Shown: positions 12,508 to 32,425 of the stretch, piece by piece
Numbering within the stretch: position 1 is the first letter of the stretch
Layout: the number at the start of each line of letters is the position of its first letter
Virus record (IMG/VR): IMGVR_UViG_3300027747_002447
Location: 1 to 35,003 of that record
DNA from: a virus
Reading direction: 5' to 3' (one strand)
Length of the DNA stretch: 35,003 bases
Made by a program: the position numbers and the translations under genes
The notes under the pieces: model-generated
Seen by the model: only the letters and a program-made list of their open reading frames with translations
Told to the model about the DNA's origin: nothing
Databases searched by the model: none

Positions 12508-15500
12508 ATGGCGAACGGACCAGAATTAAGAATTTCTAATGTTTTGGGAACTCCAGTTTTTCAATGGGTTATAAATCAATTGGGAACTAGAGCAGAAAAC
12601 AATTCAAGAGATACACGAGACGATTCTAATTTGATCTATCTCGCTAATAAAACAGGGTGGTTTAGAATAGTATCTTCGGTTAAAATGCCCGCAACTATTA
12701 ACGATACTCAAGATGTTAATATACCAAATGTATTTAATGCTAAAAATTTTAATGGATCTTTTTCAACTAGAGCTACTTCTAAAACATACGAATATTTTAG
12801 AAAAAAGTATCCAGGCGATATAACAGACGAAGATTCTCTAGCAAAAAAATTCGTTCTTTTTGCAGGTACATCAGCTTACAAAAAATCTGAAACAGGAGAT
12901 GCTTTTAGCTATAAACTACAACAACCGGCTTACGGAATACTTGGAGATGAAGAAATAAAAAAGTACGGAAGAAGACCAATGCCAGGTATTACTTCAGTTC
13001 AAATAGATACTCAAGGCTCTTTAGGTTCTATAAGAGGCGCTAATATAAATTTTAAAGTTTGGGACAAAGATCAATTGGACGTAATAGATGCGCTGTACTT
13101 TAAATTGGGTTATACTATGCTTTTGGAGTGGGGCAATACATTCTATTACAAAACAGGAGAATCCGCGCTATCTAAAGGAGAAGATTCGCAAATAGATCCA
13201 TTCTCTAAGACGCGTAATTCTAAAGAAGAAATTAATTCACAAATACAAAATAACGTTAGACAATCAGAAGGCAATTACGATGGAATGTTGGGATTGGTAA
13301 CTAACTTTAATTTCACGTTCAATCAAGAAGGCGGTTACGATTGTACATTAAAAATACAGGCTTTAGGATCTTTGGGAGATAGTATTAAAATTAATCATTC
13401 TTCTGCGCTTCCTGCATTATACGTTAGAAAAGTAAAAAATACCTATAATTCGGAATATCAAAAAAAATTGGCTGACGCAGAAAAGCAAAAAAATCTAAGA
13501 CTTCAAGATCAGACAAAAGCATATCATGATTCAATAAACAAAGCAAACGAAGCTCTAGCAAAAATAACTAACGATCCATTAACTCTATTATTACTCAAAT
13601 ATGTTCCAGATGGAAGTTGGACAGGCGATGACGAAAATGGCAACTTAATATACCCTACTAAACACTCTATACCTGATTCTTCGGGTAGAGAGTCTGTAGG
13701 TATTTCTGTTTCTACAAATAAAGATGTTGTTTTTATACCATATAACTCAACAGGTCAAAAAATAGATAAGTATCTAGATGGAGCTCAAGGCGCTAATACT
13801 ATAGTAACTTTAGATAAAGACAGAATCGAATCAATTTTTTCCAACGAGATATCGGATTATAATACAAGAGAAAGAGAAAAGGGTGGTACTACAATTTATT
13901 TAGCCAATAATTTTTTCGACTATCTATATTTTAATGGAGGTACAAAATCTTATATAGGACTAAATCAAGAAGGTTCTAGGATATACGATATATTTTTTTC
14001 TAGTAATGCTAACAATAGCACTGTTGAAAATTCTCGTAATGCAGCGAATGCTCTTAAATTATCAAACTTATCTTTTAATGTAGTTGGAATATATTACATT
14101 GATAACGCAGACGCAATTAGTAAAAAAGATCGAGTAAATATACTATTATCTTTAGTAGATAATCCGTCTGTAAAATTACAGATACAAGACATTTCTTTAA
14201 TAAAAGACATATCGTACAAATCTGGTTTCCAATATACTAATTCTGGCGCGCTTCAAAAATCAATTAATGATAATAATGCTAAAATTCTAGAAATACAAAA
14301 ACAAACAGCGGAAAACTTTAAACAGACAGAACAAGATTTAAGTAAACAAAATTCAGAAGCAGCAACAAAACAAACAGAAGACGCTACAAATTATCAGTCG
14401 GCTTTAGAAATAATGCTTAAAATAATTCAATTGGAATCTTTTAACTATGCTCAAAGTAAGTCATTTTCTGACGTTATAAAATACAATTTAACTGACATTG
14501 ATACTGAAACAAAAGTTCGTTTTATTGATGAGCTATTTACAGAAGGCATATTTGAAGGCAAGATTCAAAAATTATTGGATAAAGTAAAAGAATTAGAATC
14601 GGCTAAAGCCGCTGCAGGTACTGATAAATCAAAATTGCAAAATCTAAATAAAAATTATACGAATCAAAATCAAGAAGAACAATTTTTGATTAACGCTGCT
14701 TTTGGATTCAATCATAATTTTATCGCAGGTATTTCTGATGTTGCCAGTACGCCTTTAGTAAGATACGAAAGCGTTAATGCAGAGGATCACACTCTTTTTA
14801 ATGCATATATTTTACCGCAAGATATAAAATCTAGAATAAATGAAGGAAGTATAGATCTTAATCATCCAGTATATATTCCTTTTGGACTTTTACTAATGAT
14901 GATTAATCATATTTGTTTAGTTTATGATGGCACATCAAAAAGTCAATTGACTCCTATAGTCTATGTGGACTATAATACAAATACTAATTTTTGTTTGACG
15001 AATGCAAAACAACTTTCCACAGACATAACAAAATTTTTGATTGGATATCAAGGCACAAATGAAAGCTATCAAGATCTTTTTGATCAAAACGTTTTAACTC
15101 ATGACAAAAAAACACTAATTAAAACAACAGATCAAACAAAAGATTCAGCGCAAATAAACATATTCGTACCTCAAGATGATGATCGTATTTCAGGAAAAAT
15201 ACCTGAATTTAAAACAGTAAATGGAAGTTCATATCAAGGCAGATTAATGAATGTTCTAGTGAATATAAACTACGCAACAAAGTTAGTCGCAGAATTCAGT
15301 TATAGAGATGGAACTAACTCAGTGTATCTAAAACAATTTTTGGAGCAGATCTTAGTCGATATGAATAAATCTTTGGGTAATTTTAATATATTAAGATTAT
15401 CTTATCACGATTCTTCTAATGCATTCGTTATAGTAGACGATCAACAAACAAAAGTGGCAGACGGAGAAATTCAATTAACTGCTCAAAACGCAAATATATC

Positions 15501-16677
15501 AGAACTTCCCATATTTGGAAAAAAATCTATAGCTAAATCTATAGAATTAAGAACAGACATAAGTAGTAAATTGGGCAGTATGATAGCTATATCGGCAAAC
15601 TCTGATCCAAGTAGGCAAGTTGGTCTTTCTAGAGACGCTAGTTCTTTTGGGTTCGTTAATACCGATTTTCAAGACAGATTTATTTCTATAGCTACGGACA
15701 TATACATGGATAAAAAACAACAGAATTCTATCAAGAATACTGCAATAGTTAATGAAGCAAAAATGTTTGACGAGTACATTAAATCGATATATAAATACGC
15801 TGATTCTTATGATGAAAGTAAAATAAGCTTTGCTACTAATTACTATATTCAAAAAATGAGTATATTAAAAAATAAAGAACTTGCTACGAGAGCTTCTGCA
15901 ATGATACCTGTTTCTTTGAATATTAGTTTGGACGGAATATCAGGTCTTCAAATGACTCAGTTATTTACAATAGGAGATAGTTTTTTACCTTACAATTATA
16001 CTAAACTAAAAGAAGGAAATCCTTTTACTAGTATAGGATTTGCAATAGTTGGTCTTACTCATACCATAGAAAACAATCAATGGACAACTTCTTTGAGAAC
16101 GAACATGTCTTATTTAAGAAATAATGTAAATGATTATGACGCGGATAAAACAAGAACTATTTATTCTACTGCAAAACCAATAGTGACTTCCGTTATTCAA
16201 AATAGTAATGTCCCTAGAGGTACAGGATTAAGCCCAAAAAATGCAAACGCAACTTCTCAATTTATTTTTGGATCTTCTGTAAGTTTAGGCGACTCTATAA
16301 AACAAAAAGCACACGGAGCTAGAGAGGCCTCTCAACAAGGTCAATGGCAAAGTGAAAATGCGTGGGACTTATTTACCAGTGCAAATACTCCAGTATACGC
16401 AATATTTGATGGCAATATTTCAAAAGTAAATTTCTACGAATCAGTGCCTTATATTTGGGGATACAGATTCACTTTAAATGCGAGAACTAACAACTCTTTT
16501 TATACACACTTAGATTCAGTGGTAGTAAAAGAGGGTCAGTCTGTTAAAAAAGGAGAGTTACTTGGCTATGTAGGACAGCCTCCAAGACCTGATTATTCAT
16601 GGGATCCACATTTACATATAGCGCTAGAAACAGGAGTAATATCTACTTATATAGATTCAAACGGTAAAATATTATGA
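12508..16677 (+). CDS. Giant baseplate hub protein with C-terminal M23 peptidase (tail lysin)
   Basis: The 1389-aa protein combines a hub-like N-terminal half (GSIRGANINFKVWDKDQLD, LGYTMLLEWGNTFYYKTG, GLVTNFNFTFNQEGGYDCTLK), a coiled-coil region at about 590-700, further hub-like domains (LNISLDGISGLQMTQLF...IVGLTHTIENNQWTTSL, about 1130-1220) and an M23 metallopeptidase domain at about 1270-1385. In M23, zinc is held by H-x3-D, and H-x-H is near the end. Here D1287 (NAWDLF), H1334 (YTHLDSV), H1368 and H1370 (DPHLHIALE) are present, but the first ligand position is Glu/Asn-like (SENAWD). It would sit at the tail tip and locally cleave peptidoglycan cross-links during penetration, replacing T4 gp27+gp5 in one chain. 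Activity is uncertain given the missing His. Confidence 0.8.
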   Translation: MANGPELRISNVLGTPVFQWVINQLGTRAENNSRDTRDDSNLIYLANKTGWFRIVSSVKMPATINDTQDVNIPNVFNAKNFNGSFSTRATSKTYEYFRKKYPGDITDEDSLAKKFVLFAGTSAYKKSETGDAFSYKLQQPAYGILGDEEIKKYGRRPMPGITSVQIDTQGSLGSIRGANINFKVWDKDQLDVIDALYFKLGYTMLLEWGNTFYYKTGESALSKGEDSQIDPFSKTRNSKEEINSQIQNNVRQSEGNYDGMLGLVTNFNFTFNQEGGYDCTLKIQALGSLGDSIKINHSSALPALYVRKVKNTYNSEYQKKLADAEKQKNLRLQDQTKAYHDSINKANEALAKITNDPLTLLLLKYVPDGSWTGDDENGNLIYPTKHSIPDSSGRESVGISVSTNKDVVFIPYNSTGQKIDKYLDGAQGANTIVTLDKDRIESIFSNEISDYNTREREKGGTTIYLANNFFDYLYFNGGTKSYIGLNQEGSRIYDIFFSSNANNSTVENSRNAANALKLSNLSFNVVGIYYIDNADAISKKDRVNILLSLVDNPSVKLQIQDISLIKDISYKSGFQYTNSGALQKSINDNNAKILEIQKQTAENFKQTEQDLSKQNSEAATKQTEDATNYQSALEIMLKIIQLESFNYAQSKSFSDVIKYNLTDIDTETKVRFIDELFTEGIFEGKIQKLLDKVKELESAKAAAGTDKSKLQNLNKNYTNQNQEEQFLINAAFGFNHNFIAGISDVASTPLVRYESVNAEDHTLFNAYILPQDIKSRINEGSIDLNHPVYIPFGLLLMMINHICLVYDGTSKSQLTPIVYVDYNTNTNFCLTNAKQLSTDITKFLIGYQGTNESYQDLFDQNVLTHDKKTLIKTTDQTKDSAQINIFVPQDDDRISGKIPEFKTVNGSSYQGRLMNVLVNINYATKLVAEFSYRDGTNSVYLKQFLEQILVDMNKSLGNFNILRLSYHDSSNAFVIVDDQQTKVADGEIQLTAQNANISELPIFGKKSIAKSIELRTDISSKLGSMIAISANSDPSRQVGLSRDASSFGFVNTDFQDRFISIATDIYMDKKQQNSIKNTAIVNEAKMFDEYIKSIYKYADSYDESKISFATNYYIQKMSILKNKELATRASAMIPVSLNISLDGISGLQMTQLFTIGDSFLPYNYTKLKEGNPFTSIGFAIVGLTHTIENNQWTTSLRTNMSYLRNNVNDYDADKTRTIYSTAKPIVTSVIQNSNVPRGTGLSPKNANATSQFIFGSSVSLGDSIKQKAHGAREASQQGQWQSENAWDLFTSANTPVYAIFDGNISKVNFYESVPYIWGYRFTLNARTNNSFYTHLDSVVVKEGQSVKKGELLGYVGQPPRPDYSWDPHLHIALETGVISTYIDSNGKIL

Positions 16678-17359: not shown

Positions 17360-18661
17360 ATGTATTTCATTGTAGAGAATCTAGATCAGTTTAAAAAGCT
17401 GAGTGCGAAAGACGAGTGCTTCGTACAACTCGTAACGGGCAATGACAGAATTCACCCAAAATTAACTTACCCAAGTTTACTGTATTACAACGACGGTGAA
17501 AAAGGCTACATATTTCCATTCAAACACTCAGAGTCGTTTAGTTTAGATTTCGAAGAGATTCACTCTTTTCTTAAATTACACAAGAAAGTTTATTTATTGG
17601 ACAAGAAGTTTCATTCTTACTTCTTTGATCTACCAAACGCTATAGACTTACATTTCGTTAACTTGGATCAAACCAACGAATTCAACCAGTTCGACTGCGA
17701 TACTAACTTACACCACGATTTTTATTCTCGATATGGGCACCTTCCCATAATAAATGAGATCGTTCCCATTTCCAAACACTACCAAAGATGTCAGTGCTTG
17801 TACGATTACGTTAAAGGCTACTTCGATCTAGAAACAGACATACAAACGCAAGAGGACTTCATTAGCGCGTATAAATCAGTCGAGGAGAATCCAATAAAAG
17901 TCGACGTAAAGTGCTTAATAGATAAGTACCAGATTCACGATCAGAGCTACTCTATTAAAGGGGACAAGATGTATTCGTGTTACAACTTATACAATTTAAC
18001 AGGAAGACCAACGAACTCCTTCAATGGCATTAATTTCTTGGCCATTCCTAAAGAGAACGATTTTAGAAGCTGTTTTTTACCCAGCAATGACTTTCTTGTA
18101 GAGTTCGACTTCGACGCGTATCACTTGAGGTTAATAGCCAGATTGATAAATTTCGAGTGTCCAAAAGAATCTTTTCACGAGTATTTGGGAAAACAGTATT
18201 TTAACAAAGAGCGATTAACAGAGGATGAATATAGAGAATCAAAAACTATTACGTTTAAACAGCTTTACGGCGGAGTAGATAAAAAGTACAAACACATTCC
18301 ATTCTTTGCTAAAATGGAAGAGTTTACAGAAGAAGTTTGGAAGGCTTATAAAACTCAAAAAGGCTATAAGCTTCATACAGGCAGAGTTATAAGACCAGAA
18401 GACTCCATGACAAAGTATAAACTGTTTAACTACGTGGTACAAAATATGGAAACCTCAGAAAACATTTATAAGATACAAGAGATTCAGAAATACCTTAAAA
18501 CGGCAGAGACCAAGACCAAACTAATTTTGATCACTTACGATTCGTTCCTATTCGATTTTTCTAAAAAGGACGGAAAAAAGACCCTAGAGCAGATCAAAAC
18601 CATATTGGAAACAGGAGAAATGAAGGTAAAACACAAACATGGGACTAATTATGCATTCTAA
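17360..18661 (+). CDS. Short divergent family A DNA polymerase-like protein with degenerate exonuclease region (433 aa)
   Basis: Palm and finger motifs of family A polymerases are readable: the TGRPTNS motif (214-220), INFLAIPK, motif A VEFDFDAYHLRLIARL with catalytic D250, motif B with K295, F299, Y303-G304 (KTITFKQLYGG), GRVIRPED at 341-348, Q361, and motif C ITYDSFLFDF with D394. Departures: motif C is YDS instead of HDE, motif A has H255 where Glu is usual, and R754 of E. coli corresponds to Y291. The N-terminal ~100 aa align by eye with the exonuclease domain of the full-length polymerase in this window, but the DxE metal-binding motif is absent (VQLVTGNDR). The thumb region is shortened. 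Both carboxylates needed for nucleotidyl transfer remain, so a specialised or regulatory polymerase is possible; activity is not established. Confidence 0.75.
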   Translation: MYFIVENLDQFKKLSAKDECFVQLVTGNDRIHPKLTYPSLLYYNDGEKGYIFPFKHSESFSLDFEEIHSFLKLHKKVYLLDKKFHSYFFDLPNAIDLHFVNLDQTNEFNQFDCDTNLHHDFYSRYGHLPIINEIVPISKHYQRCQCLYDYVKGYFDLETDIQTQEDFISAYKSVEENPIKVDVKCLIDKYQIHDQSYSIKGDKMYSCYNLYNLTGRPTNSFNGINFLAIPKENDFRSCFLPSNDFLVEFDFDAYHLRLIARLINFECPKESFHEYLGKQYFNKERLTEDEYRESKTITFKQLYGGVDKKYKHIPFFAKMEEFTEEVWKAYKTQKGYKLHTGRVIRPEDSMTKYKLFNYVVQNMETSENIYKIQEIQKYLKTAETKTKLILITYDSFLFDFSKKDGKKTLEQIKTILETGEMKVKHKHGTNYAF

Positions 18662-18692: not shown

Positions 18693-19121
18693 ATGACAGA
18701 AACAAACACAATAGAATTAACACAGGAATCGCTTATGAACAAGCTATTTTGTACCTTCGCCAAAAAAGATGCCCTAGACGAAAGGTTACAAGAAATAAAT
18801 AAAGAATACAAAATACTTTATAATAAAATATTCGTATTGGCTTCCCCAGAGTCTGACGAGTACATGTGCACCTACAATATCGAGATAGAAGGCCCTAATA
18901 CAAAGATCCTTCCAAATACTATCCTATTGCACAGAAAGAAAGAATCCAACACACTTTACACGATTAATGCACTTAATACTTTAATTAAGAGCCTGAATAA
19001 CGGAGTATTGGATAATAAATTTATGGTGAATTGGCCTGACTATAGGAACTCTATCTTATTGACACAAGGCGACGATTTAAGAAGGCTTAACACCTCTATC
19101 CACAAGATAGTTGCTGTTTAG
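18693..19121 (+). CDS. Hypothetical protein next to SSB (142 aa)
   Basis: A soluble protein starting MTETNTIELTQESLMNKLFC, then a helix (KKDALDERLQEINKEYKILY), a beta pair (DEYMCTYNIEIEG), ILLHRKKESNTLYTINALNTLIKSLN, and VNWPDYRNSILLTQGDDLRRL. The conserved-looking segment HRKKESNTLYTINALN and the YRNSILLT stretch appear in a family of phage proteins next to gp32-like SSBs, as far as I recall, though I cannot name it. It might be a replication or late-transcription accessory, since T4 genes flanking 32 (33, 59) have those roles; there is no sequence match I can demonstrate. Candidate promoters lie on both sides of the gene. Confidence 0.7.
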   Translation: MTETNTIELTQESLMNKLFCTFAKKDALDERLQEINKEYKILYNKIFVLASPESDEYMCTYNIEIEGPNTKILPNTILLHRKKESNTLYTINALNTLIKSLNNGVLDNKFMVNWPDYRNSILLTQGDDLRRLNTSIHKIVAV

Positions 19122-19190: not shown

Positions 19191-20003
19191 ATGGATATTT
19201 CCCAATTAAAATCTAGGCTCGCTTCCCTACAAAATCCAAGAGGCGGACAGAAAAAGGACTTCAGTTTAACAATCTGGAAACCTACTGTAGGTAAACACTT
19301 AGTTCGTATTGTGCCATCCGCGTACAACAAATCGAACCCATTCAAGGAATTATTTTTCCACTACGGTATCAACAACAAGACAATGATTTCTCCGACTTCT
19401 TTTGGAGAAAAAGATCCAATCGTTGAATTCGCTCAAGGTTTAAGAAAGAGCGACGATTGGCAGTCAGCTAAGAAGTTCGAACCAAAATTACGCGTATTCG
19501 TTCCAGTCATCGTAAGAGGCGAAGAAGAAAAAGGCGTAAGACTATGGGAATTCGGCAAGCAAGTCTACATGGATTTGTTGGCAATCTTAGAAGACGAAGA
19601 CGTAGGGGATTTTACAGATCCTATTCAAGGTCACGACATTACAGTCGACACAGCTGGTAAAGAAACCACTGGATTAATGTACAACACTAGCACAGTAAGA
19701 GTTAGAACAAAAGTTACGCCGTTATCAGAAGATAGCAACAAAGTAAAGCTGTGGTTAACAACTCAACCCGAGCCAGATACATTGTTCAAGAGATACTCTT
19801 ACGAAGAGATGAAATCTGCTTTAGGCGCTCATTTGAATCCTGAAGAAGAGATCAAACAAGATGCCGATGTAGTAGTTGAAAAAACTCTTGAAACAGGAGA
19901 TTTACCTTGGGAAACAAAAGAAGAAGCTACTAAACCAGCTTTTACTTTAAACACAAGTAAGACAGAGATCGATTCTAAAATAGACGATTTGTTCAACTTT
20001 TAA
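19191..20003 (+). CDS. Single-stranded DNA-binding protein (T4 gp32-like)
   Basis: The 270-aa protein starts MDISQLKSRLASLQNPRGGQ (basic N-terminal segment like the gp32 cooperativity region), followed by the OB-fold core (TVGKHLVRIVPS..., SAKKFEPKLRVFVPVIVRGEE, GVRLWEFGKQVYMDLL) and an acidic C-terminal tail ending IDSKIDDLFNF, as used in gp32-type proteins to recruit partner proteins. T4 gp32 has a zinc knuckle of one His and three Cys. Here His57 remains (FFHYG), but the expected Cys positions are Ser67, Asp75 and Val78, and the protein has no Cys at all. It would coat single-stranded DNA at replication and recombination forks. A terminator follows, so it may be its own unit. Confidence 0.88.
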   Translation: MDISQLKSRLASLQNPRGGQKKDFSLTIWKPTVGKHLVRIVPSAYNKSNPFKELFFHYGINNKTMISPTSFGEKDPIVEFAQGLRKSDDWQSAKKFEPKLRVFVPVIVRGEEEKGVRLWEFGKQVYMDLLAILEDEDVGDFTDPIQGHDITVDTAGKETTGLMYNTSTVRVRTKVTPLSEDSNKVKLWLTTQPEPDTLFKRYSYEEMKSALGAHLNPEEEIKQDADVVVEKTLETGDLPWETKEEATKPAFTLNTSKTEIDSKIDDLFNF

Positions 20004-20061: not shown

Positions 20062-21141
20062 ATGGCGAAGGCTACTAAAGAAGGGTTAAATAGCTCCATA
20101 TCAAAAGCTATCAAGACAGAATTTAATTTAGACAATTTTAAAAAGTCAAAGAATTTATCTTCTACTTCCATAAAATTTAAAGATCAAACGTGGATCCCTT
20201 TATCAAAATCGTTTCAAGACGCGTTACAAATTCCAGGCGTTCCAAAAGGTCACATTACTTTATTAAGAGGTCACTCTGATACTGGTAAAACAACCGCTTT
20301 ATTGGAAGCAGCAGTGAATGCTCAAAAGATGGGTATTCTACCTGTATTCATTATCACTGAGATGAAATGGAGTTGGGAACACGCCAAAGAAATGGGATTA
20401 CAATTTGAAGAAGTAGCAGACGAAGATGGCGTAGTAAATGATTACAAAGGCTTTTTCATATTCGTTGATAGAGAAAAGATGAATTGTATCGAAGACGTAT
20501 CGGCTTTTATCTTGGATATTTTAGACGAGCAAAAAGCTGGAAATTTACCTTACGATATCTGTTTCTTTTGGGATTCTGTAGGCTCCGTCCCATGCAGACT
20601 ATCAATTGAGTCAAACAAGAATAATAACGAGTGGAATGCAGGCGCAATGTCACAACAGTTTGGACAGTTCGTTAATCAGAAGATTGCATTATCAAGAAAA
20701 GAGAGTCAACCTTATACAAATTCATTCGTTGCAATCAATAAAGTTTGGGTCGCAAAGCCTGAAACTATCATGAGTCAACCAAAGATGAAGAATAAAGGTG
20801 GAGACACAATGTTCTTTGACGCTTCTCTTATTATCACTTTTGGAAACGTTACCAATGCAGGCACAAACAAAATAAAAGCTACCAAGAACGGTAAAGAAGT
20901 CGAGTTTGCAAAGAGAACAAAAATCTCTTGCGATAAGAATCACGTTACAGGAGTTACTGCTTTGAACAAGGTTATTATGACAAGCCACGGATTTATTGAC
21001 GACGATAAAAAAGCATTGGACAATTACAAGAAACAGTATTCTCATCAGTGGTTAAAAACATTGGGATCAAAAGACTTCGATGTAGTTGAAGAAGCAGACG
21101 AAGACATTAAAGACATATTTGATAGTTCAGAACATGAATAA
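20062..21141 (+). CDS. uvsX: RecA-like recombinase (T4 UvsX-like)
   Basis: A 359-aa RecA/UvsX ATPase core. Walker A is G70-HSDT-GKT77 in PKGHITLLRGHSDTGKTT, the probable catalytic Glu is E100 (FIITEMKW), and Walker B is DICFFWDSVG with D171. Later, NKVWVAKPE and KNKGGDTMFFDASLIITFG match the regions after the core in UvsX, including the filament and DNA-binding loops. The C-terminus is acidic (VVEEADEDIKDIFD). It would load on ssDNA coated by the SSB encoded just upstream and start strand invasion for recombination-dependent replication. The start follows the SSB terminator by 12 bases, and the stop overlaps the next gene's probable start by 8 bases. Confidence 0.92.
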   Translation: MAKATKEGLNSSISKAIKTEFNLDNFKKSKNLSSTSIKFKDQTWIPLSKSFQDALQIPGVPKGHITLLRGHSDTGKTTALLEAAVNAQKMGILPVFIITEMKWSWEHAKEMGLQFEEVADEDGVVNDYKGFFIFVDREKMNCIEDVSAFILDILDEQKAGNLPYDICFFWDSVGSVPCRLSIESNKNNNEWNAGAMSQQFGQFVNQKIALSRKESQPYTNSFVAINKVWVAKPETIMSQPKMKNKGGDTMFFDASLIITFGNVTNAGTNKIKATKNGKEVEFAKRTKISCDKNHVTGVTALNKVIMTSHGFIDDDKKALDNYKKQYSHQWLKTLGSKDFDVVEEADEDIKDIFDSSEHE

Positions 21142-22162
21142 AGATTACCAAAAGATATTTGATTCGCTTGGAAAGGAAGAAGTTGAAGAGAAAAAAGAAG
21201 ATCTAAAGGTAAACGATAGAATTTTAATTATCGATTCTTTGAACACTTTCTTAAGAGCGTTTACAGTTATACAACATTTTAATAAAAGTTTGAATCACGT
21301 TGGTGGATTAACAGGTTACCTAAGGTCGCTTGGTTTTGCCATCAACTTGATTCGACCTACCAGAGTGATTTTGGCGTTCGATGGCAAAGGTTCATCTACC
21401 AATAAACGTTATATCTACCCAGAGTACAAAGCTAACAGAGGCATACGCCGGGTCACTAATTGGGACGCTTTTGAGAATCAGGAACAAGAATCAGAAGCAA
21501 TCACAAATCAGTTGGTTAGATTAATAGATTATTTGAAGTGTTTGCCGGTAGATTTAATTTCAATAGACAAAATAGAAGCAGACGATGTTATCGGTTACAT
21601 CACTCAACAGATGGACACAGACTTTACAATAATGTCTTCAGATCGAGATTATTTACAGCTCGTATCAGAAAGAATTACTGTATATTCTCCTACGAAAAAA
21701 ATCTTCTACACTCCTAAAAAAGTCTTAGACGAGTACGGAGTTAGTAGCGAAAACTTTTTGAATTACAAAGTTTTGACAGGAGATTCTGGAGATAACGTTC
21801 CTGGAATTAAAGGCATCGGACCAAAGACGATAACAAAACTTTATCCAGAATTATCGAGCTACAATAAAATGACTTTAACAGAAGTTATAGAAAAAGCAAA
21901 AGAAGGAGATGGTAAAGCATTCATGAATATTAGAAATTTCGAACATCAACTAAAGATAAACGAAAAGCTAATGGATCTAACAAATCCCAACATACCAGAA
22001 GATTCTATTGTAGAAATACAAGAAATGTTGGCGAGTCCTAACAAGACTTATAGATCAAAGGAATTTATGGAAATTTATCACGAAGACGATCTAGGAAATT
22101 CGATAGCAAATCTCCAGTCGTGGTTACACAATCATTTTCACCAGTTATCAAAATATAAATAA
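21134..22162 (+). CDS. 5'-3' exonuclease / flap endonuclease (T4 RNase H-like)
   Basis: The frame is open from 21086, but the ATG at 21134 gives a protein starting MNKDYQKIFDSLGKEEVEEK with only an 8-base overlap with uvsX; this start is preferred (342 aa). The metal-binding acidic residues of FEN/T4 RNase H nucleases are in order: D34 (ILIIDSLNTF), D83 (VILAFDGKG), E148-D150-D151 (KIEADDVIG), D170 and D172 (MSSDRDYLQL), and D217 and D220 (LTGDSGDNVPG). The helix-3-turn-helix GDNVPGIKGIGPKT at 219-232 binds duplex DNA. It would remove RNA primers and flaps from lagging-strand fragments. Neighbours are UvsX and the replicative helicase, as expected for a replication operon. Confidence 0.92.
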   Translation: MNKDYQKIFDSLGKEEVEEKKEDLKVNDRILIIDSLNTFLRAFTVIQHFNKSLNHVGGLTGYLRSLGFAINLIRPTRVILAFDGKGSSTNKRYIYPEYKANRGIRRVTNWDAFENQEQESEAITNQLVRLIDYLKCLPVDLISIDKIEADDVIGYITQQMDTDFTIMSSDRDYLQLVSERITVYSPTKKIFYTPKKVLDEYGVSSENFLNYKVLTGDSGDNVPGIKGIGPKTITKLYPELSSYNKMTLTEVIEKAKEGDGKAFMNIRNFEHQLKINEKLMDLTNPNIPEDSIVEIQEMLASPNKTYRSKEFMEIYHEDDLGNSIANLQSWLHNHFHQLSKYK

Positions 22163-22165
22163 GTT

Positions 22166-23542
22166 ATGGCAGTTTTAAATCAACTTCAGCAGTACGGAAT
22201 CGGTTTTCAAATTAAGGTTTTATCTAGCTTATTAAAAGATAAAGAATTCCTACAAAATATAAACGACATCTTGGACGTAGAGATGTTCGATAATCCAGCG
22301 CACAAGTGGATTGTACAAGAGATATTAAGGTACTACTACAAGTATCACACAACGCCTTCGATGGAATCTTTACAGGTCGAAGTTAAGAAGATCGACAACG
22401 ACGTATTAAAGGTGAGTGTTATAGAACAATTAAAAGAGTCACTAAAGGCAACAGACGAAGACAGAGAATACGTAGAGAGCGAATTTTCTAACTTCTGTAA
22501 GAATCAACAGATGAAGAACGCGATCATGAATTCTGTTAGTCTTTTGGAAAAGGGGGAATTTGATCAGATTAGATCAATGATCGATACTGCGTTAAAGGCA
22601 GGACAGGACAAGAGAATAGGACACGAATACGAGAAGGACATGGAAACTCGATACAGAATGGAACAGCGTTCTCCTATCGCAACTCCATGGGCAAATCTAA
22701 ACGAATTGCTTATGGGAGGTTTGGGCGTAGGCGATCTAGGCATTATATTCGGAAATCCAGGTGGAGGTAAATCTTGGTTGCTAGTTAACTTGGGTGCAAT
22801 AGCGGTACAGATGGGGTTTACTGTAAATCACTACACATTGGAATTATCCGAAGACTACATTGGTAAAAGATACGATGCGCTGTTTACTGGCATAGACGTT
22901 CAGCAAATTCATTTGAACAGAGATAAGGTACAAACGGAGATCGACAAGCTTAAAGGCAAGTTAATTATCAAAGAATTTCCAATGGGTAAAACCACACCTA
23001 ACACCATAGAAAATCACATTCAAAAGTGTAGAGATTTAGGACATCCTCCAGATCTAGTCATTATAGACTACGTTGATTTGTTAAAGAGCAAAACAAGATC
23101 TATAGACCCAAAAGACGCAATAGACGATGTATACACTGCAGTCAAAGGTATGGCAAGAGAAATCAAAGTGCCAGTGTGGACAGTATCTCAAGTAAATAGA
23201 ATGGGAGCCAAGGACGACGTAATTGAAGGAGACAAGGCAGCAGGATCTTACAACAAGATGATGATTGCAGATTTTGCGATGTCCCTATCAAGAAAAAGGC
23301 AAGACAAGGTAAATGGCACAGGTAGAATGCACGTAATGAAAAATAGATATGGAGCAGACGGTATGACTTACGCTGCAAAGGTAAATACAAATTGTGGAAG
23401 GATCGAAATTAACAAAGACGAAATAAACGAAGACGATTTGACTTTCGATACTGGAAAACCAACTGGACATGGAAATAATGGAAGTTTTAGCGCAGACGAG
23501 AAAAATTATCTGTCTAAGAAATTCTTTGAGATGAACATATAA
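22166..23542 (+). CDS. Replicative DNA helicase (DnaB/T4 gp41-like)
   Basis: The 458-aa protein has an N-terminal helical domain (1-150: LQQYGIGFQIKVLSSLLKD, YYKYHTTPSMESLQ) and a RecA-type motor. Walker A is GNPGGGKS (196-203), the catalytic Glu is E227 (YTLELSE), Walker B is LVIIDYVDLL with D301, and VPVWTVSQVNR (motif with the sensor Gln) and an arginine-rich KNRYGADG region follow. This is the DnaB-family ring helicase that unwinds the fork 5' to 3'; no primase domain is fused, and none is seen in the window. The gene starts 3 bases after the FEN stop with context AGTTATG. Confidence 0.93.
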   Translation: MAVLNQLQQYGIGFQIKVLSSLLKDKEFLQNINDILDVEMFDNPAHKWIVQEILRYYYKYHTTPSMESLQVEVKKIDNDVLKVSVIEQLKESLKATDEDREYVESEFSNFCKNQQMKNAIMNSVSLLEKGEFDQIRSMIDTALKAGQDKRIGHEYEKDMETRYRMEQRSPIATPWANLNELLMGGLGVGDLGIIFGNPGGGKSWLLVNLGAIAVQMGFTVNHYTLELSEDYIGKRYDALFTGIDVQQIHLNRDKVQTEIDKLKGKLIIKEFPMGKTTPNTIENHIQKCRDLGHPPDLVIIDYVDLLKSKTRSIDPKDAIDDVYTAVKGMAREIKVPVWTVSQVNRMGAKDDVIEGDKAAGSYNKMMIADFAMSLSRKRQDKVNGTGRMHVMKNRYGADGMTYAAKVNTNCGRIEINKDEINEDDLTFDTGKPTGHGNNGSFSADEKNYLSKKFFEMNI

Positions 23543-23916: not shown

Positions 23917-25942
<2,026 letters not shown>

Positions 25943-30799: not shown

Positions 30800-32425
30800 A
30801 TGAGTACAACAAAAAATATAAATGGAACAGAACTTAAAGAGAAGTTACTTTCCGGAATTGAGAAATTAAATCTAGCTGTCTCGTCTACATTAGGACCAGG
30901 CGGTAGAACAGTTTTAATCAGAGAGCAAAATGGCGAAGTTAAAGTAACCAAAGACGGCGTAACAGTAGCTAAAGCTTTTCATAAATTGGAAGACGATGTT
31001 GAAGACTTAGGCGCACAGTTAGTAAAGCAAGTTAGTATTAAATCCGCAGTTGAAGCTGGAGACGGTACGACTACTTCTACTTTATTGGCAACAGAAATGG
31101 TTAGAGAAGGTTTAAAAGAAATTCGTCAAGGTTCTAACGCAGTAGAGATTAAAAACTCAATCGATAAAACAGTCAAGCAAGTTATCGAATACATTAAGAA
31201 AATTGCTATTGATATCGATTCAGAAGAACAAGTAAAGCAAGTTGCGACTATTTCAGGTAATAACGATGTAGAAGTTGGTAATTTGATTGCTACTGCGATT
31301 GAAAAAGTAGGTCGCGAAGGTGTAGTTACAATCGAAGAATCAAAAAGTGGAGAAACCAGTTTAGAAATCGTTGAAGGTATGCAATTCGACAGAGGTTACA
31401 AATCTCCTTATTTCGTTACTAATAACACAACGATGCAGTCAGTATTAGAAGATCCTTACATTTTCTTGTACGACGGTAGAATCTCCTCAGCGCAAGAGCT
31501 TTTACAAGTTTTAACAAAAGCAAATTCAGAGAACAAACCATTGTTAATTATCGCAGAAGATATCGGAGAAGAAGCATTAGCTACTTTGATCGTTAATAAG
31601 ATGAGAGGCATCGTTCAAGTTTGTGCAGTTAAAGCACCAGACTTTGCAGAAAGAAAAACGTTGATCTTAGAAGACATCGCAATCTTAACAGGCGGTTCAG
31701 TAGCTTCTAAAGACAAAGGTCACAAATTGGAAAAATTAACTGGAGCTCAAATCAACGAATTCTTAGGTAGAGCTAGATTAGTTACAGTATCCAAAGACGA
31801 AACTACTATCATCGACGGTAAAGGCAATGAAACTGTAATCGAAGCAAGAGCAGAAGAAATTAAAGAGCAAATTGAAAAATCAACATCGTTCTACGAGAAA
31901 GAGAAATTACAAGAGAGATTAGGTAAATTGGTTGGAGGTGTTGCAATCATCAACGTAGGCGGTAATTCTGATATTGAAATTAAAGAAAAGAAAGACAGAG
32001 TAGAAGACGCTTTATACGCAACTAAGGCAGCGTTATCTGACGGTATCGTAGCAGGCGGAGGTTCGGCTTTATTCGAAGCGTCCATTCAACATCATGCACA
32101 AGATTCTATCCACGATGCAATTGCTTATGGAATTGTTCAGAAAGCGATTCAAGCTCCATTCAAGAAGATCTTAGAAAATGCAGGAGTTCAAGACTGGTAC
32201 AATAAGATTCCAAAAGAAGGCGAAGTATACGATGCCAAAAATCACAAGATAGTAAACGCGTTAGAAGCCGGCATTATCGATCCAGCCAAAGTGGTTATCA
32301 CCGCTCTTAGAAACGCGGCTTCAGTAGCAGGAACCATTCTAACTACCGAATCAGTTGTATTCGAAAAGAAAGAAAAAGAAGAAAAAACTCAAGACCCAAT
32401 GATGGGAATGGGCGGAATGATGTAA
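30800..32425 (+). CDS. groEL: Chaperonin GroEL (full length)
   Basis: The 541-aa chaperonin is essentially full length (E. coli 548). ATP-site residues are in place: LGPGGR (31-36), TKDGV with D52, GDGTTT (88 region), and RVEDAL with Asp, AGGGSALFEA. The apical substrate-binding stretch MQFDRGYKSPYFV keeps both Tyr and Phe, and EDIGEEALATLIVNKMRG is conserved. The C-terminus ends DPMMGMGGMM, the Gly-Met tail of bacterial GroEL. So it should form a working double ring with the GroES next door. Phage GroELs are rare, and a complete phage GroES/EL pair is rarer still. A terminator follows. Confidence 0.96.
   Translation: MSTTKNINGTELKEKLLSGIEKLNLAVSSTLGPGGRTVLIREQNGEVKVTKDGVTVAKAFHKLEDDVEDLGAQLVKQVSIKSAVEAGDGTTTSTLLATEMVREGLKEIRQGSNAVEIKNSIDKTVKQVIEYIKKIAIDIDSEEQVKQVATISGNNDVEVGNLIATAIEKVGREGVVTIEESKSGETSLEIVEGMQFDRGYKSPYFVTNNTTMQSVLEDPYIFLYDGRISSAQELLQVLTKANSENKPLLIIAEDIGEEALATLIVNKMRGIVQVCAVKAPDFAERKTLILEDIAILTGGSVASKDKGHKLEKLTGAQINEFLGRARLVTVSKDETTIIDGKGNETVIEARAEEIKEQIEKSTSFYEKEKLQERLGKLVGGVAIINVGGNSDIEIKEKKDRVEDALYATKAALSDGIVAGGGSALFEASIQHHAQDSIHDAIAYGIVQKAIQAPFKKILENAGVQDWYNKIPKEGEVYDAKNHKIVNALEAGIIDPAKVVITALRNAASVAGTILTTESVVFEKKEKEEKTQDPMMGMGGMM

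Follow-up and report, generated by a model that had tools for sequence, protein, structure and literature searches.

The reduced second family A polymerase encoded in the window (the whole stretch of 35,003 nucleotides that was analysed) is a member of the published divPolA1 family, in which it belongs to a subgroup other than that of Flavobacterium phage immuto, and the defining features that could be tested are present. We consider it rather likely that this 433-residue protein is an active accessory polymerase, predicted not to proofread, which works with a recombination and replication cassette encoded downstream of it. As its active site is altered in the same way in every relative read and one small gene nearly always follows it, divPolA1 is probably a working specialist enzyme rather than a broken copy. 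The features of the window are collected in Table 1.

Table 1. Features of the window discussed in the text, with their positions, strand and the basis of each assignment
Feature	Position	Strand	Basis
1389-aa tail-region protein	12508..16677		
divPolA1, 433-aa reduced family A polymerase	17360..18661	+	ORF, translation, conservation, AF2 model, PDB matches, immuto homology
142-aa companion protein, no assigned function	18693..19121	+	linkage to divPolA1, AF2 model
gp32-like single-stranded DNA binding protein (SSB)	19191..20003	+	Pfam gp32 E 7e-10, PHROG SSB E 2e-19
UvsX/RecA-like recombinase	20062..21141	+	Pfam RecA E 1.6e-7, PHROG UvsX-like E 1.7e-15
5'-3' exonuclease, separate protein	21086..22162	+	Pfam 5_3_exonuc_N E 1.4e-28; start codon from ORF finder
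DnaB-like replicative helicase	22166..23542	+	PHROG DnaB-like E 3.7e-77
Ribonucleotide reductase	23917..25767		
Regular full-length family A DNA polymerase, 769 aa	27403..29712	+	Pfam DNA_pol_A E 2e-63, DNA_pol_A_exo1 E 1e-15
GroEL	30800..32425		

The divPolA1 open reading frame is uninterrupted in both the ORF list and the translation, and its product consists of a vestigial exonuclease-like N-terminal domain, a short middle helical region, palm and fingers. Motif A is formed by D250, D252 and H255, motif B by Y291, K295, F299 and Y303, and motif C by Y393-D394-S395, with a further motif Q361-x2-E364-T365-x2-N368. The initial annotation had listed D250, H255, K295, F299, Y303 and D394 as polymerase residues, and each lies exactly where it was placed; the replacement of the motif A Glu (by H255) and the presence of YDS instead of HDE were likewise verified in the translation. 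The Pfam DNA_pol_A model covers residues 226–308, the palm and fingers part, at an E-value of 2.6e-7, which is below its curated cut-off. The window protein gave no match to a Pfam exonuclease model, to a PHROG or, by sequence, to the PDB. A profile of 57 relatives does reach Klenow (E 6e-4), with all motifs aligned: D250 pairs with D705, H255 with E710, Y291 with R754, K295 with K758, F299 with F762, Y303 with Y766, N357 with N845, Q361 with Q849, and Y393-D394-S395 with H881-D882-E883. The pairing itself is that of the profile alignment, and the Klenow residues carry E. coli numbering.

The AlphaFold2 (AF2) model, made from the family alignment, is a confident Pol I fold (pLDDT 93.3, pTM 0.91). 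The top matches by structure and by sequence are all DNA polymerases, and the structural ones all belong to family A (in Foldseek, apicoplast polymerase at E 1e-20 and Klenow at E 8e-19). With VIA-align, 400 of the 433 residues superpose on M. smegmatis Pol1 (Z 27.7, rmsd 3.8), and model residues 1–433 align at a similar score with residues 300–874 of Bst Pol I, the exonuclease-like domain included. We infer the placement of D250 and D394 from this whole-length superposition. The stretch from the N-terminal domain to the palm holds only two long helices (137–154 and 161–175), and the N-terminal part of the model sits where the exonuclease-like domain of Bst sits, a placement that rests on structure. 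The initial annotation had aligned this region with the exonuclease domain of the 769-residue polymerase, but sequence similarity to that polymerase was not recovered either by BLASTP (best E 1.1) or by profile comparisons. Within residues 1–130, D96 is the only acidic position conserved in more than 93% of 232 distinct divPolA1 proteins, so a multi-carboxylate exonuclease site cannot be conserved. As modelled, the 3'–5' exonuclease domain of divPolA1 is present but inactivated. The model and the motifs together uphold the description of the gene as a second, reduced polymerase of family A whose exonuclease-like domain is vestigial.

The regular polymerase of the window, reported earlier as a full-length family A enzyme and identified as such by Pfam, has both exonuclease and polymerase domains and shares 55% identity with the second PolA of Flavobacterium phage immuto 3-5A (immuto). 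In all 13 relatives compared, its motif C is HDQ, with Gln at the Glu883 position, and Leu stands at the F762 position. The window divPolA1 protein taken alone gave no significant match to this polymerase by BLASTP or in profile comparisons. At the level of groups, the divPolA1 profile matches bacterial Pol I over 213 columns (E 1.5e-7) and the regular-PolA group over 66 columns (E 0.006). When 65 polymerase domains were placed in a tree, divPolA1 fell into a single clade (SH-aLRT 100) and the regular PolA of phages into a second one (99), with such long stems to both that the branching order is not to be trusted. The sequence comparisons and the separate clades rule out a duplicate of the regular polymerase; of the two origins that had been left open, paralogue or separate lineage, the tree favours a separate clade and not a recent in-genome duplication. 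On long contigs, the regular partner is a family A polymerase in the window and immuto groups, and a family B polymerase in LR756508, a phage of 484 kb, and in the Mel-JY01 group; a family C partner was not found among 16 mostly small contigs. As the family of the main polymerase differs among these phages, divPolA1 appears to be kept irrespective of it. In LR756508.1, which is an uncultured phage, divPolA1 lies at ∼241.5 kb together with the 142-residue companion described below, and the PolB matches fall in two separate ORFs.

The family was named by Yutin et al. 2024 from 14 phages headed by immuto (PMC11348598), and in the literature searched the name divPolA1 appears nowhere but there and in the preprint of the paper. 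As described in its main text, from an analysis of genomes and structures, divPolA1 accompanies a regular PolA, PolB or PolC, and replication genes lie downstream of it; it has a truncated thumb and an inactivated exonuclease, and probably keeps DNA polymerase (DNAP) activity. The defining features given there include a genome of ∼155–190 kb and a regular DNAP near GroEL/GroES (PMC11348598). The window protein is 35% identical to immuto divPolA1 (immuto gene 1) over 99% of its length (E 3e-71), and we found the extra regular DNAP, the conserved palm Asp residues, the downstream replication genes and the regular PolA near GroEL, which lies ∼1.1 kb past it. The window is a 35-kb fragment, and divPolA1 relatives reach 136–174 kb. 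The family is far larger than the 14 phages of the main text: relatives were found on 390 viral stretches with the window protein as query, on 109 with the Microcystis phage protein and on 312 with the immuto protein, and a profile search found at least 583 IMG/VR contigs with divPolA1, although these sets may overlap. Searching viral contigs with the LR756508 protein yielded no relatives, and none were found in plasmids. A further copy lies with its companion on the 11-kb contig JAIOYD010000025.1, assigned by binning to a Rickettsiaceae MAG, which also encodes a Pol I of its own; this is probably a phage contig.

Whole-protein identity between groups of divPolA1 is only 27–37%. Across 232 distinct complete proteins, R216, D250, H255, K295, F299, Y303, Q361, E364, T365, N368, Y393 and D394 are nonetheless invariant, and N357 is invariant or nearly so. 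Among these are D250 and D394, which bind the metals, and R216, K295, F299, Y303, N357 and Q361, which contact nucleotide and template. Position 395, equivalent to Glu883, is Ala in 135 and Ser in 97 of these proteins; position 291, equivalent to Arg754, is Tyr in 225 and Arg in none; and position 252 is Asp in 223. A second set was collected via the companion gene, and not via divPolA1 patterns. In it, H255 (64/64) and D394 (65/65) are again fixed, as are D250, K295, F299 and Y303 (100% of 64–65 proteins), and position 395 is only Ser or Ala; positions 252 and 291 are more variable than in the larger set. The ratio dN/dS is 0.029–0.074 between the window gene and 22 close relatives, with dS saturated in places, and has a median of 0.072 over 535 closer pairs. 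divPolA1 is under strongly purifying selection, which argues against decay, and a decaying pseudogene is ruled out by these ratios (∼0.03–0.07) together with the residue invariance. The ratios, the many relatives, the Pfam match and the AF2 model also show that the reading frame did not arise by chance. The regulatory decoy suggested in the initial annotation is disfavoured on the same grounds, the core catalytic residues being invariant.

It could be argued that divPolA1 has no catalytic activity and serves as a structural or regulatory protein which holds primer-template, or the companion, in the replisome; its small size and the loss of the Glu710, Glu883 and Arg754 equivalents in all members read would fit. 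Dead polymerase homologues usually lose the catalytic Asp residues, however, and here neither these nor the main residues of the nucleotide pocket vary despite the low identity between groups, so that we regard a dead protein as quite unlikely. Moreover, the missing carboxylates have been shown not to be essential in the PolA of phage Tt72, which naturally has Ser at the motif C Glu position and yet is active (PMC9324360). In that enzyme the S616A mutant keeps 76% of activity, E389A (the Glu710 position) 35%, and either Asp mutant 4% (PMC9324360). Although the motif A and motif C Glu residues, features of active family A polymerases, are absent in all divPolA1 members, the lack of the motif C Glu need not abolish activity, given Tt72 PolA and the HDQ of the regular polymerase of the same phage; this Glu is not strictly defining in phages. 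Arg754 contacts the triphosphate in Klenow. With Glu710 and Glu883 changed, and Arg754 replaced by Tyr in most members, the efficiency of the enzyme could be very low.

Glu710 blocks ribonucleotides in Pol I. Together with Tyr766 it shapes the nascent base-pair pocket, Ala mutants of either residue being mutators (PMC4882331). The fixed His and its invariant Tyr partner in divPolA1 suggest that fidelity or the choice of sugar is changed, and not that function is lost. One reading of the His, which stands at the steric gate in every member read, is that divPolA1 uses ribonucleotides, either to make primers or to extend RNA. Single-subunit RNA polymerases also lack the steric-gate Glu, and their motif C is HDS. 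An RNA polymerase role was proposed by Yutin et al. for divPolA2, the other family, in their main text (PMC11348598). We nevertheless think ribonucleotide use very unlikely: F299, the F762 equivalent, is kept, the best matches by structure are DNA polymerases, and His, being bulky too, could still act as a gate. Nor is a primer maker missing, since the longest relatives of each group carry Toprim_2 primase-like ORFs of ∼310–333 residues (three of them below the family cut-off). These ORFs dispose of a missing primase as the explanation for the gene, and they disfavour the suggestion that divPolA1 serves as the sole primase.

Changed fidelity can also be read as a sign of a dedicated translesion or mutagenic-repair polymerase, without proofreading and with altered fingers contacts, recruited to stalled forks by the companion in a role like that of PolA2/APEX. 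The vestigial exonuclease-like domain and the change at a fidelity residue (the Glu710 position; PMC4882331) are consistent with this, as is the mutagenic-repair role proposed for PolA2/APEX, which is likewise a second PolA, found in bacteria, and whose exonuclease is eclipsed (PMC12926913). However, Y303, the Y766 equivalent, never varies, the linked genes serve replication and recombination with no damage-response gene among them, and the near-constant SSB, RecA and DnaB neighbours suggest a constitutive role. On this evidence a dedicated translesion polymerase seems unlikely, although translesion or repair synthesis, as suggested in the initial annotation, may still be among the tasks of divPolA1.

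The neighbourhood of divPolA1 is close to fixed. Downstream of it lie the 142-residue gene, SSB, recombinase, 5'–3' exonuclease (of the kind which in bacteria is fused to Pol I) and DnaB, in that order; among distinct loci with enough sequence, SSB was found in 113 of 115, the recombinase in 92 of 94, the exonuclease in 70 of 76 and the helicase in 55 of 58. divPolA1 had been described as next to SSB, which is not directly so, as the conserved 142-residue gene intervenes; in immuto and Mel-JY01, additional genes lie between the companion and SSB. Beyond the helicase, the ribonucleotide reductase of the window gives a weak match to a class II (B12-dependent) insertion-domain model, and the corresponding place in immuto is taken by separate genes for the alpha and beta subunits. 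On the other side of divPolA1, the 1389-residue tail-region protein has a metallo-endopeptidase-like C-terminal domain (residues 1284–1374).

The companion directly follows divPolA1 in 203 of 204 loci, with a median gap of 32 nt, and divPolA1 was present in all 60 of the loci found by the companion alone that had enough upstream sequence. The window companion is 60, 50 and 42% identical to those of immuto, LR756508 and Mel-JY01, and the corresponding values for divPolA1 are 35, 37 and 27%; by sequence identity, the companion is the more conserved of the two. Its AF2 model is a mixed alpha/beta structure (pLDDT 88.7), and its sequence gave no convincing family match. As to a known fold, Foldseek gave no match under E 0.001, and the best VIA-align score, to polyomavirus origin-binding domains (Z 5.1), is too weak for an assignment. 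Immuto, Mel-JY01 and LR756508 have a related tail sheath in common, so the link between companion and divPolA1 could reflect shared phage ancestry only. Such ancestry also weakens the specificity seen among phage records, where the companion finds six, an SSB search finds the same six plus seven others, and the upstream 210-residue gene finds only one.

We favour the view of divPolA1 as an active accessory polymerase of the cassette. Its processivity would be low, and it would make short stretches of DNA where the cassette acts, candidate tasks being gap filling, extension of recombination intermediates and damage bypass. The companion may help divPolA1 to bind DNA or another cassette protein, and bulk replication would be left to the regular polymerase, of family A or B depending on the phage. 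A bolder reading, to which we give little credence, is that divPolA1 and its companion form a new type of two-protein polymerase, in which the His gate, the Tyr at Arg754 and the Ala/Ser at Glu883 alter sugar selection. It might then, for example, make or extend RNA or mixed RNA–DNA primers on intermediates of recombination, and the companion would be an obligate subunit for DNA binding or processivity. The occurrence of the same altered site and the same companion alongside different main polymerases points to a replication or repair step that the main polymerase does not perform. The fixed His at the ribonucleotide-excluding position puts the focus on sugar selection, and the companion is a named candidate subunit.

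Compared with bacterial Pol I (Klenow, Bst, M. smegmatis), divPolA1 shares the fold and the aligned motifs A, B and C, but identity is only ∼14%, the 5'–3' exonuclease domain is absent, Glu710, Arg754, His881 and Glu883 are replaced by His, Tyr, Tyr and Ala/Ser, and, in the profile alignment, the region from motif B to motif C is shorter. The regular PolA of the same phage is likewise of family A, with both catalytic Asp residues and without the motif C Glu; unlike divPolA1, it has 769 residues with an exonuclease domain, keeps Glu710, Arg754 and His881, and has Leu at F762. divPolA2 of the barbaviruses, as described in the main text of Yutin et al., is also an additional divergent PolA beside a regular polymerase, with no exonuclease activity, but it has an unrelated N-terminal domain and a variable neighbourhood, whereas in divPolA1 the N-terminal domain is exonuclease-like and the neighbourhood is fixed (PMC11348598). 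PolA2/APEX of Actinobacteria, which we liken to divPolA1 by description, is another second PolA with an eclipsed exonuclease, but is cellular and has a clamp-binding motif (PMC12926913). Immuto divPolA1 shares with the window protein homology over the full length, the place upstream of SSB, recombinase, 5'–3' exonuclease and helicase, a regular polymerase near GroEL and the loss of the exonuclease site. What is added here to the main text of Yutin et al. (PMC11348598) is the active site with its fixed His and Ala/Ser, the Tyr that replaces Arg754, and the companion gene.
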